Of a stretch of 64,000 nt of DNA, positions 56,472-62,941 are shown piece after piece (position 1 is the stretch's first letter; each line of letters opens with the position of its first letter). Under the pieces are notes generated by a model. The model searched no databases. It was not told the origin of the DNA and worked only from the letters and a program-made list of their open reading frames with translations. This DNA is from an uncultured cyanobacterium (lineage in GTDB: Bacteria > Cyanobacteriota > Cyanobacteriia > PCC-6307 > Cyanobiaceae), in the NCBI GenBank assembly GCA_903823115.1, contig CAIJRN010000042.1, positions 62,001 to 126,000 of the forward strand, written 5' to 3'. The translations under genes were made by a program, and so were the position numbers.

Positions 56472-58235
56472 TCAGCTGGCGCTGACACTCCGCTGGGCGG
56501 CCTGGTGGCGCTGGAAACGGGCAATCTCAAGCTCCAGCACGCCTTCATTGATGCCGAGCGCCCGGGCGATGCCCCGCAGCTGCTCATCTTCTTCGGGTTC
56601 GATGATGCCGTCGGCACAGGCCACCCGGAAGGCGGCCTCGAGAATCAGTTCACGGCCATTGTCATCGAGCCTGGCTTGTTCCGTCGCGAGGCGATGCAGC
56701 AATTGCTCGAACGGAGCGGAGTTGCCTTCGGCTTCGATCAGATTCTGGAGGTTCTGGGCCATGGCGTGGAGCTCCCCCTGCTGGGGCTGGTGACCCATGA
56801 TCTCGGTATAGGTTTCGGCCATGGTCACGATTTCGGGTTCGTCGATTTCGCCGTCCGCCAGGGTGATGGCGATCATGCAATCCAGCAGCAGATCACGAAC
56901 TTTGATCGCATAGCGATCGCCATGGGACACGGCCCAGCGCAGATCGCTGAGATCCCGTTGTTTGCGGTTGTGCTGAGAGGCACGGGGATCCCGTTTGCAC
57001 CCCGTCCGTCCTCCCGAAAGGCTGTCATAGATGTGGAAGGTGAACAGCTCCACCAGCTCCCGGCAGAAGGCCACGCCGCGCACCGAATTGCCGTAGGAGT
57101 CGAGCCGCGGTGAGAAGGTGGCGAATCCCATCAGGTTGGGCACCACCGTCAATACGGCACCGGCCACCCCTGATTTGGCCGGCAGACCCACCTCGAGGGT
57201 GAACACGCCGGCGTTGTCATACATACCGGCCGCCTGCATCACCGAGAGGGTCTTCTTCACCACGTCGGTGGACAGCACCTGCTGGCTGGTGATCGGGCAG
57301 ACCCCGCCATTGGCCAGGGTGGCCGCGGCCACCGCGAGCATGGAGGCGGTCATCTCGATGCTGCAACAGGAGAGGTAGAGATCGAGCATCTTGTTGAGAT
57401 CCACGCCCCGCGGCAGGCCCTTGCCGCCCCGGAGCAGGTAGGCGATGGCGTAGTTGTTGTCGGCCGTGGCCTTTTCGGAGAGCATGGTCTCCTCGCTGAA
57501 CTGCACCGGAGCCACAGCACCGCAGAGGTCGGACCAGAGCTTCATGATCTCCTCGGTGATCCCGCGGGCGTCCTGGTCGGGCCAGCTGGAGGCCACCACG
57601 CCGGCGGTCATGATGGCGCCGGCATTGACACAGGGATTGAACGGGCGCAGGTCCGGCAGCAGTTCCAGTGAGTTGAAGGGGCGCCCTGAGGGTTCCACGC
57701 CGACATACTCCTGCAGATAGTCAGGGCCCTCCCGCTCCAAGGCGTAGGCATAGGTGAGTGGTTTTGAGACGGACTGGATCGAGTGGTAGACATCCACATC
57801 ACCGATCTCGATGCGCTGGCCGTCGACGGAACAGACGGCCACTCCCCACTTGTCGGGATCGGCATCGCGCAGGATCGGGATGTAGTCGGCGTTTTGGCCA
57901 CTGCAGTCTTCGGCGACACGCTCAAACACCGATTCGATGTCGCTGCAGAACTCCTGCCAGTCGGGAATCACCAGCTCACGGTTGAAAATCCGGTTCAGCA
58001 TCAGCAGTTCGGCGCCCACCAGCTCAGCGAAGGCTTCAAAGCTGATCGGACTCTCCCCCAGGGCCTGGAGGCGCTCCATGGTGGTGCGCAGTCGGAAATC
58101 GTTGAGCTGGATGCCGCTGCCGAGAATGTGATCGTGAATTCTGGCTGTGCTGGTGGTGCCATTACCTTCGGTGTCATTGCCTTCGGTGCCATTGCTATCG
58201 GCGACGACGGCAAACATCTTCAGCAACCGGTCCAT
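56472..58235 (-). CDS. glsA: Long-type glutaminase with C-terminal TerB-like domain
   Basis: Hydrolyses glutamine to glutamate and ammonia. 587 residues. Residues about 30-110 form an N-terminal helical domain (ARIHDHILGSGIQLNDFRL, MERLQALGESPISFEAFAEL, IFNRELVIPDWQEFCSDIES) that aligns by eye with the EF-hand-like domain of animal KGA glutaminase. The catalytic domain follows: ADYIPILRDADPDKWGVAVC, SxxK motif SIQSVSKPLTYA, NPCVNAGAIM, LPAKSGVAGAVLTVVPNLMG. Residues about 440-580 look like a TerB tellurite-type helical domain (VRDLLLDCMIAITLADGEID, ILEAAFRVACADGIIEPEED), instead of the animal ankyrin repeats. ATG 58235. Confidence 0.9.
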   Translation of the reverse strand: MDRLLKMFAVVADSNGTEGNDTEGNGTTSTARIHDHILGSGIQLNDFRLRTTMERLQALGESPISFEAFAELVGAELLMLNRIFNRELVIPDWQEFCSDIESVFERVAEDCSGQNADYIPILRDADPDKWGVAVCSVDGQRIEIGDVDVYHSIQSVSKPLTYAYALEREGPDYLQEYVGVEPSGRPFNSLELLPDLRPFNPCVNAGAIMTAGVVASSWPDQDARGITEEIMKLWSDLCGAVAPVQFSEETMLSEKATADNNYAIAYLLRGGKGLPRGVDLNKMLDLYLSCCSIEMTASMLAVAAATLANGGVCPITSQQVLSTDVVKKTLSVMQAAGMYDNAGVFTLEVGLPAKSGVAGAVLTVVPNLMGFATFSPRLDSYGNSVRGVAFCRELVELFTFHIYDSLSGGRTGCKRDPRASQHNRKQRDLSDLRWAVSHGDRYAIKVRDLLLDCMIAITLADGEIDEPEIVTMAETYTEIMGHQPQQGELHAMAQNLQNLIEAEGNSAPFEQLLHRLATEQARLDDNGRELILEAAFRVACADGIIEPEEDEQLRGIARALGINEGVLELEIARFQRHQAAQRSVSAS

Positions 58236-60031: not shown

Positions 60032-60634
60032 ATGTCAACGGTCCCCTCGGGTAGCGAATCGACCCGCAGCCAGTTGCTCAAGCAGTTGCGTCCGCCCGGA
60101 TCCGGCGGCCCGGCGGCCGGGGCCGGGCGGGTGCGCGGGCTGATTGAACAGCTCGAATTGGAGCAACCCGCCGACCTGGTTCGCGATCAGGCGCTGTTGC
60201 GCGGCGTCTGGGAGTTGTGCTGGAGCAGCAGCTCGCTGCCCTATCTGGCGGTGGCGCCCTGGTTGGAGAACCTGCAGCTGCTGGATCCGGCCAACGGCCG
60301 GGGCATGAACCTGCTGCGACTGGCCGGCCCCCTGGGCCCCGTGGCCGGCATCGCCGTGCAGGCGGCGATCGCGATCGAGCCCGTGGCCGCTGCCGCCGGG
60401 GAGCCGGCCCCGCCCGCCCAGCGGGTGAGTGTGCGCTTCGAGCGGGGCGGCTGGCTGGGGCCCAGGATCGGCCCGAACCGCCTGCAACTGCTGCGGCAGG
60501 TGAAGCAGAGCTTCCCCGCCTGGCTCGACATCACCGTGGTGGATGAGCAGATCCGCGTCTGCCGCGGCAATGCCGGCACCCTGTTCGTGCTGCTGCGTCG
60601 CCCTGATCTCAGCCTGGAGAGCCTGATGGACTGA
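60032..60634 (+). CDS. PAP/fibrillin family protein
   Basis: 200 residues, plastid-lipid-associated protein family, linked to plastoglobule-like lipid bodies or carotenoid/plastoquinone handling. LLRGVWELCWSSSSLPYLAV carries the conserved 'L.G.W.L.Y' core; later FERGGWLGPRIGPNRLQLL and ITVVDEQIRVCRGNAGTLFV are the terminal strands. ATG 60032. 79 bp after crtL, same direction, a sensible partner. Its 3' end overlaps the end of the convergent racemase gene by 26 bp. Confidence 0.85.
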   Translation: MSTVPSGSESTRSQLLKQLRPPGSGGPAAGAGRVRGLIEQLELEQPADLVRDQALLRGVWELCWSSSSLPYLAVAPWLENLQLLDPANGRGMNLLRLAGPLGPVAGIAVQAAIAIEPVAAAAGEPAPPAQRVSVRFERGGWLGPRIGPNRLQLLRQVKQSFPAWLDITVVDEQIRVCRGNAGTLFVLLRRPDLSLESLMD

Positions 60635-61796
60635 GGCGGCCCGACTGGCGCTCCGGGGTCCGGGGCCGGCGCCCCCGCAGCGAGCCGGCCTGAGCCGTGG
60701 AACCCTGATGGGCGTTGCCCTGCAGGCAGCGGCGCTCGATGAAGGGGCTGGTCATCGCCCGCAGCAGGGCGCTGTAGTCGAGGCCGAAGCGCAGCTCATC
60801 ACCGACCGCCAGGGGATGGTCAGCCTCGATCACCAGGTGATCACTGCTGGCTCCCACAATCGCGATTCCCGCCGGCGGCGTCAGTCCGGCGGGATCGACA
60901 TCCTGAATCCCCAGGGCCAGCAGGGCCCGTTGCCGCAGCCCCGGCTGCCGCAGCCCTGGCTGCCGCTGCGCCGGCGTTGCCACGGGCGCAAAGCTGGTGC
61001 GGCCGCGCTGGCCCCAGGGCTGGCCGGGTTTGTCCTTGGCCTCGATCACCTCTGCCACCAGGCTGATGGCGTCGGTGTGCAGGCCGCTCAGGGCGCTGCG
61101 GCTCAGCGGTTCGCGGCCCAGCAGCAACGCCTCCCCCAGCCGCAGATGGTTGATGCGGCCTGGGGGATGGCCGGCGGCCAGCCAGGGCAGATTGCTGGAG
61201 TTGCCCCCCGACACGATCTCCAGGCGCAGGCTGAAGCGTCGCTCCAGGGCGTTGGCCAGAGCCGAGAGTTCCGCCATGTTGCGCGGATCGGCGGCGATGC
61301 CGTGCTGGCAGCCCAGGTTGGTGCCGATCCCCAGGAGCCGCAGGCCGGGCTGCTCCAGAGTCAGCTGGGCCACGGCCTCCAGGTCGGCCGGCAGGATCCC
61401 TTCACGCAGATCCCCCAGTTCCACCATCAGCAGCACCCCATGGCGGCGCCCCTGGTCCAGGGCCGCCGCCGCCAGCGCCCGCAACACCACCGGTTCGCTG
61501 TTGCAGCTGCTGCTGGCATGGGCCACGACGCGCTGCACCTGGCTGAGCATGGGAGAGCGGATCAGCAGCATCGGCGTGGTGATGCCGGCGGCGATCAGGG
61601 CCTCGATCGTTTCGATGCGGGGTTCGCCGATCGAGGCGATGCCGGCCGCGGCCCAGGTGCGCACGATCTCCGGCAGGCCGAGGCTGGCCTTGCTCACCCC
61701 CGTGATCGCGATGCCGCGGGCGGCCAGCTGTCGCTTCAGGCTGCGGGCATTGTGGTGCAGGTGATCGAGGCGAATCTCCAGTCTGGGGGCGCTCAA
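60609..61796 (-). CDS. PLP-dependent amino-acid racemase (alanine/ornithine racemase family)
   Basis: Fold-type III PLP barrel; substrate unknown. 395 residues from TTG 61796 (LSAPRLEIRLDHLHHNARSL). The PLP lysine is in GIAITGVSKASLGLPEIVRT; SIGEPRIETIEAL corresponds to 'aDsRleN' of ornithine-type racemases; VELGDLREGILPADLEAVAQ, GIGTNLGCQHGIAADPRNM and EIVSGGNSSNLPWLAAGH are further matches. A short QPGLRQPGLRQ repeat lies in the second half. The C-terminal about 30 residues are Arg/Gly/Ser-rich. Its start overlaps the DUF1611 stop by 4 bp. Confidence 0.85.
   Translation of the reverse strand: MSAPRLEIRLDHLHHNARSLKRQLAARGIAITGVSKASLGLPEIVRTWAAAGIASIGEPRIETIEALIAAGITTPMLLIRSPMLSQVQRVVAHASSSCNSEPVVLRALAAAALDQGRRHGVLLMVELGDLREGILPADLEAVAQLTLEQPGLRLLGIGTNLGCQHGIAADPRNMAELSALANALERRFSLRLEIVSGGNSSNLPWLAAGHPPGRINHLRLGEALLLGREPLSRSALSGLHTDAISLVAEVIEAKDKPGQPWGQRGRTSFAPVATPAQRQPGLRQPGLRQRALLALGIQDVDPAGLTPPAGIAIVGASSDHLVIEADHPLAVGDELRFGLDYSALLRAMTSPFIERRCLQGNAHQGSTAQAGSLRGRRPRTPERQSGRLSPSGSPG
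60929..60972. repeat. 15-bp direct repeats in the racemase gene
   Basis: Three tandem, slightly diverged copies encode QPGLR, QPGLR, Q(R). They interrupt an otherwise ordinary racemase C-terminal half. Confidence 0.7.
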
Positions 61797-62941
61797 CCAG
61801 CCGCCGCCAGGGCCGGAGTCAGGGCCGGGAAGGCCCGCAGCACCATGTGCACCAGGCGCTCCGGCGGACGGCTCAGGGCATCACTGACCGGGATACCCAG
61901 CTCGGCTTCATAGAGGGCGATGGCGGTGGTGATCGCCGCGTCGTCCATGGCTTCGTGGTTGAGGGTGAGGCCGATCACCCGGGTGGCGGCGAAGGCCTCG
62001 ATCAGGCGGATTTCACTGGCCGGTGTGGGCATGGCCACGTGGTTGAAATCACTGAGCCACTGGCGCCGTGGGGCGTGCTGCAGGATCACCGCCTGGGGCT
62101 GGCAGCCCCGCAGGATGAAGGTGGACGAGAGATAGGCGGGATGGCTGAGGGCCCCCTGGCCTTCAATCACGATCACCTGGGGATGCTCCTGCTCCCAGGC
62201 CTGGACCACGGCCGCCTCCACTTCGCCGGAACAGAACTGGGAGGGGATGGCATCGAGGGCCATGCCATGGCGGCCGCCCTGCATCAGGCCGGTCTGGCCG
62301 GTGTTCACCAGCACGGCCCGGATGCCGGCCTGGTTGAGGGCCTGGACCAGGCGGGTGGCGGTGGTGCGCTTGCCGATGGCGCCATCGGTGCCCAAGACAG
62401 CGATGCGGGGGCAGCCCACCGTGGCGATGGCGCCGCTGAACAGGCGCAGATCCTTCAGCGCCGGCACCCGGCGCACATCCCGGATCGTCACTTGATGGCG
62501 GCTGGCGGCGGCGGCGAACTCCGGGTCATCGTTGAGGAATTCGCGCAACCCCTGGACCAGATTCAGCCCGGCGGCCATCGCCTGCAGCAACACCTGGCGC
62601 TCCGGCGGGCTCATCAGTCCGGTGGCCGGAGCCATGCCGTAGATCAACAACTGGGGGCGCTCCCCCTCCAGGGCCAGGGCGGCCTCCAGATCCCGGACGA
62701 TCGGAATGCCATTCGCCAGCCCGTCGAGCACCAGGCCGGCATCGAGGCCAGCGCAGTGGCTGTCGATCACGGCGGCGATGCGATAGGCCTCGCAATCGCG
62801 CACCAGCCCATGGGCGGTTTTGCCATCGAGATGGTTGAACTGGCCTTCGCAATAGATCAGGGCGGTCTGAACCGGCCTGCTGGCTGGGGCCGGCCCACGC
62901 AGGAGCTGGGGCAGGCTCGGGGCCTGGAGTGACAATGTCAA
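61793..62941 (-). CDS. DUF1611 P-loop protein (DgcN-like)
   Basis: 382 residues from TTG 62941 (LTLSLQAPSLPQLLRGPAPA). Rossmann-like N-terminal half (TALIYCEGQFNHLDGKTAHG, IVRDLEAALAL), then a P-loop GTDGAIGKRTTATRLVQAL, GQTGLMQGGRHGMALDAIPS, VIVIEGQGALSHPAYLSST. Characterised DUF1611 proteins such as DgcN act on D-glutamate as N-acetyltransferases. Directly coupled to the PLP racemase. The other racemase partner known for DgcN is an enolase-superfamily protein, not this family. Confidence 0.83.
   Translation of the reverse strand: MTLSLQAPSLPQLLRGPAPASRPVQTALIYCEGQFNHLDGKTAHGLVRDCEAYRIAAVIDSHCAGLDAGLVLDGLANGIPIVRDLEAALALEGERPQLLIYGMAPATGLMSPPERQVLLQAMAAGLNLVQGLREFLNDDPEFAAAASRHQVTIRDVRRVPALKDLRLFSGAIATVGCPRIAVLGTDGAIGKRTTATRLVQALNQAGIRAVLVNTGQTGLMQGGRHGMALDAIPSQFCSGEVEAAVVQAWEQEHPQVIVIEGQGALSHPAYLSSTFILRGCQPQAVILQHAPRRQWLSDFNHVAMPTPASEIRLIEAFAATRVIGLTLNHEAMDDAAITTAIALYEAELGIPVSDALSRPPERLVHMVLRAFPALTPALAAAG

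Follow-up and report, generated by a model that had tools for sequence, protein, structure and literature searches.

In the 64,000 nucleotides of DNA from an uncultured member of the Cyanobiaceae analysed here (the window), one gene encodes a glutaminase with three recognizable parts (Table 1). The Pfam glutaminase domain (PF04960) was matched over its full length with an E-value of 6.8e-98 and 327.8 bits against a cut-off of 27, and TerB (PF05099) in two stretches with an E-value of 1.4e-13 and 51.6 bits against a cut-off of 24.4. The N-terminal EF-hand-like domain (EF-hand_14, PF17959) was borderline in the scan of the single protein (8.8e-5, 23.2 bits, 0.5 below the cut-off of 23.7), scored 26.5 bits, above the cut-off, in the genome scan, and has scores of about 24-42 bits in relatives. 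All three domains named in the original prediction were therefore recovered by domain search. No Pfam match to ankyrin repeats was listed for this protein at E-values up to 10. It is the sole PF04960 protein found in the source genome.

Table 1. Features of the TerB-tailed glutaminase gene (positions in the window)
Feature	Position	Strand	Basis
Whole gene, EF-hand-like + glutaminase + TerB	56472..58235	-	ORF of 587 aa, ATG start; Pfam; PDB search
EF-hand_14 N-domain, residues 24-91	57963..58166	-	Pfam; structure model compared with GAC; no canonical Ca loop
Glutaminase catalytic domain, residues 113-403	57027..57899	-	Pfam PF04960; GAC active-site matches
Possible relic of first ankyrin helix, residues 428-446, DLSDLRWAVSHGDRYAIKV	56898..56954	-	Gapless GLS2 alignment; shuffle tests
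TerB domain, residues 441-582	56490..56915	-	PF05099; 2ou3 match; model
First TerB acidic motif, D461-G462...E468 (D, G and E invariant)	56832..56855	-	24/24 sequences
Second TerB acidic motif, D542-G543..E546..E549 (invariant)	56586..56612	-	24/24 sequences

One reading frame is kept across 24 aligned loci, which are 60-100 % identical. A misassembly artefact was considered and rejected, because the same open frame recurs in these loci, many of which are from separate genomes. A literature search for a glutaminase with TerB found no relevant paper, in keeping with the original prediction, which had not seen the fusion discussed. The TerB-tailed GLS-type glutaminase is a real and conserved fusion, undescribed as far as we have searched.

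The neighbours of the gene are gyrA and a lycopene cyclase gene. This arrangement is conserved only among the closest relatives, so it gives no functional pointer. No exact NtcA-type site (GTAN8TAC) is present in the window, and there is no Rfam match around the glutaminase gene. Near this gene, an alanine-racemase-like and a DUF1611 (DgcN-like) gene overlap each other (60609-62941, minus strand), and the same pair was seen near the glutaminase gene in three other loci (L004, L007 and L015). A contig labelled Bifidobacterium breve (L006), which bears this cyanobacterial glutaminase gene beside gyrA and the lycopene cyclase gene, is probably a mislabelled or contaminated MAG.

Among 300 Cyanobiaceae genomes sampled, 21 have EF-hand_14; a sample of 386 genomes from across the phylum contained it in only 3, all of them Cyanobiaceae. 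The three-domain TerB-type protein is intact in 17 of the 300 Cyanobiaceae genomes and was found nowhere else in the phylum sample (386 genomes); these counts cover Cyanobacteriota genomes, and no absence is claimed beyond that phylum. The other four of the 21 genomes include one with a frameshifted TerB-type gene (Synechococcus sp. GFB01; L016, matching L055), one in which it is truncated (J7-Johnson; L018, matching L056) and two in which the protein is ankyrin-tailed. Genome G239 carries the TerB-type gene twice. The nearest named loci to the window gene are from Synechococcus spp., and the window DNA is that of a Synechococcus/Cyanobium-like cyanobacterium. The two ankyrin-tailed proteins, L054 (1411-3228, plus strand) and L069 (1-1860, minus strand), have the EF-hand, glutaminase and ankyrin layout of animal KGA and come from two Cyanobiaceae genomes, one of 1.7 Mb. 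Another regulatory tail, a cyclic-nucleotide-binding domain, was found by Pfam on the glutaminases L026 and L028 (with STAS also in L028) and was judged by sequence similarity only in L032 and L037; these four are cyanobacterial, mostly from Cyanobiaceae. Neither the window protein nor an ankyrin-tailed relative, used as tblastn queries against plasmids, retrieved a record covering 80 % of the query, and a scan of viral contigs found nothing.

The window protein belongs to the GLS/GLS2 (animal-like) branch of the glutaminases. In a PDB search, human GLS2 and KGA were its best matches among solved structures, aligning over residues 37-445 with E about 1e-97, as expected from the original prediction of an animal-type N-domain and catalytic domain, and the short bacterial glutaminases (salt-tolerant, E. 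coli and Bacillus) trailed with E-values of 3.5e-61 to 2e-41. When the catalytic domains were placed in a maximum-likelihood tree (39 rows, LG+C20 PMSF), the 14 TerB-type proteins came out as one clade (100/99). The clade enclosing this one (100/99) also holds human GLS2, the ankyrin-tailed L054 and L069, as well as four short proteins from the f32 family, and lies apart from the canonical short and the STAS-cNMP glutaminases. The closest relatives of the window protein outside its own group are thus in the GLS-like clade and not among the canonical short bacterial enzymes. The tree did not settle the order of the TerB-type and ankyrin-type proteins within the GLS-like clade, where the branch leading to L054 is long. 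With a single sequence, the catalytic part of human GLS2, standing for the animal enzyme, the tree gives the branch of the window protein, and neither a date nor a direction of transfer. The four f32 proteins (L022-L025), which fall outside the class of the window protein, are short glutaminases without the N-domain, yet are found in the GLS-like clade.

The designation 'animal-type' holds for the layout. It does not hold in the sense of animal-derived, because two proteins from the same bacterial family, Cyanobiaceae, also carry EF-hand, glutaminase and ankyrin. Pasquali et al. in 2017 reportedly derived the multidomain glutaminase layout from bacteria.

The tail is a TerB domain, as its profile score lies well above the cut-off and its predicted fold is that of TerB. 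The nearest solved fold to the tail model (AlphaFold2, residues 412-587, pLDDT 87.6) was TerB, with Z-scores against re-aligned PDB chains of 8.3 for 2OU3 and 7.9 for 2H5N, the next row having 5.1, and the tail sequence alone matched 2OU3 (Nostoc TerB) with an E-value of 1.1e-5. Foldseek E-values for the same model were weak (best 0.04). The proposal of a TerB-like domain at the ankyrin position is borne out, and the score of the tail is not that of just any helical region. An ADG/E motif is present in each half, and D461, G462, E468, E478, D524, D525, D542, G543, E546, E549 and E570 are invariant in 24/24 TerB-type sequences. Because the acidic residues are invariant, metal sensing by TerB is possible, and the domain could bind a divalent metal. 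The model of the whole protein is moderate (pLDDT 67.5), so the position of TerB relative to the active site is not fixed by it.

The sequence just ahead of TerB bears on the origin of the tail. After the common DPR motif, DLSDLRWAVSHGDRYAIK in the window protein aligns without gaps with TVVNLLFAAYSGDVSALR in GLS2, where the ankyrin region begins, and this segment also resembles WAASLGD in L069 and WAASNGD in L054. Shuffling gave P values of 0.0004 for GLS2, 0.0026 and 0.0004 for two L069 segments and 0.0077 for L054, all from permutation tests that were small, uncorrected and made on segments picked by hand, in a fixed or short-range register. Used as a stand-alone profile, the relic/linker segment gave no significant match. 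The model predicts a helix-turn-helix at residues 417-437 and 441-461. With moderate confidence, the segment is probably a leftover of the first ankyrin helix, which suggests that TerB replaced an ankyrin tail.

All nine active-site residues of GAC are matched in the window protein (Y118, S155, K158, N204, E254, N261, Y287, Y339 and V357), as they are in all 39 aligned enzymes, including 14/14 TerB-type. It is predicted to hydrolyse glutamine, releasing glutamate and ammonia, with the family's serine/lysine/tyrosine mechanism. In mammals, phosphate is bound by R317 and K320, in the activation loop, and by R387, the substitution K320A removes the need for phosphate, filaments assemble through F355, F373, F378, D412 and Q416, and the ankyrin repeats restrain the N-domain (PMC10912226, PMC13142944). 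The GAC phosphate contacts R317, K320 and R387 correspond to P186, S189 and N260 in the window protein. Across the TerB clade, the R317 position is always Pro, that of K320 is Ser, Ala or Asp, and that of R387 is Asn or Thr (14/14). The R387 position is Arg or Lys in 21/22 rows of short, plasmid-borne and STAS-cNMP enzymes, and its loss is nearly special to the TerB clade, being seen also in L054 and one plasmid-borne enzyme. As the K320 position is Ser or Ala in most bacterial enzymes, phosphate independence may be ancestral and not special to the TerB-type branch. Only F246 and D285 of the filament interface are kept in the window protein, T227, M251 and S289 being different; in the TerB clade Thr replaces F355, Met replaces F378 and Ser or Ala replaces Q416, with F373 (Phe/Tyr) and D412 kept. 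As the phosphate contacts are changed and the filament interface is largely absent, phosphate-gated filaments are unlikely in this protein, to judge from its residues.

The explanation that we favour, and regard as reasonably probable, is a glutaminase of the GLS branch in which TerB has the role of the ankyrin repeats. The enzyme would work as a phosphate-independent oligomer, and the tail would take on the job of the ankyrin repeats of GLS2 and KGA, restraining movement of the N-domain and the activation loop. The state of TerB would be set by metal binding or by a protein partner, and in an ancestral lineage of these cyanobacteria TerB would have taken the place of an ankyrin tail. A regulatory function of the tail as such is probable. 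A version in which phosphate and filament control was replaced by a metal-responsive TerB tail, swapped for ankyrin with the first helix left behind, is considered unlikely.

The original prediction also allowed for regulation by Ca or stress. The structure model aligns with GAC structures from residue 1-3, and the Pfam name of the domain, EF-hand_14, invites its reading as a calcium sensor. However, none of the 26 proteins scanned (24 TerB-type and 2 ankyrin-type) has an EF-hand loop by the 12-residue PROSITE-type pattern, strict or relaxed, and the domain is therefore probably structural; a calcium sensor is extremely improbable. The tail could be a docking or localisation module that binds a membrane or a partner and has no part in regulating catalysis. 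The linker ahead of TerB is modelled with low confidence (pLDDT about 30 at residues 400-420), and the ankyrin repeats, which GLS carries at this position, generally serve as protein-interaction modules; both points are consistent with docking. We nevertheless find this somewhat unlikely, as both TerB acidic motifs are invariant and the GLS2 tail at the same position lowers activity (PMC10912226). The lower conservation of the tail (mean column identity 0.71, versus 0.87 for the catalytic domain, over the aligned loci), together with one frameshifted and one truncated relative, would suit a divergent domain from an old fusion that has little current function, on an ordinary, unregulated enzyme. 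Against this, dN/dS relative to four relatives is about as low in the tail (0.13-0.17) as in the catalytic domain (0.13-0.22), the tail is therefore maintained by purifying selection, and its acidic residues are invariant in 24/24; an idle tail is quite improbable.

Human GLS is a target for drugs, and in its full-length forms activity is held back by the ankyrin tail. Having a different tail, and lacking the phosphate contacts together with most of the filament interface, the TerB-type enzyme is a natural member of the same branch with which the roles of the tail and the N-domain can be compared. The TerB-type proteins add bacterial members to the question of the origin of the animal enzyme, and under the favoured explanation the TerB tail may be a point at which freshwater picocyanobacteria control the breakdown of glutamine.

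The GLS-type glutaminase layout is known, and for the version with a TerB tail no report was found. The window protein shares with human and mouse GLS (KGA and GAC) and GLS2 the EF-hand-like N-domain, the catalytic domain (48 % identical to that of GLS2), the full active site and an extra tail in the same place. It differs from them in having TerB where they have ankyrin, and in the changes at R317, K320 and R387 and at F355, F378 and Q416 of the filament interface. The short bacterial glutaminases YbaS and YbgJ and the glutaminase-STAS-cNMP proteins have the catalytic domain and mechanism in common with it, but lack the EF-hand domain, have another tail or none, and fall in a separate clade. 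The Cyanobiaceae proteins L054 and L069 are from the same bacterial family and have the same N-domain and catalytic branch, but their tail is ankyrin, and where they align with the window protein the identity is about 35-39 %. With the Nostoc TerB protein 2OU3 (COG3793), the tail shares an all-helical fold with acidic ADG...E motifs in both halves; 2OU3 is a stand-alone protein, whereas in the window protein TerB is fused to an enzyme.
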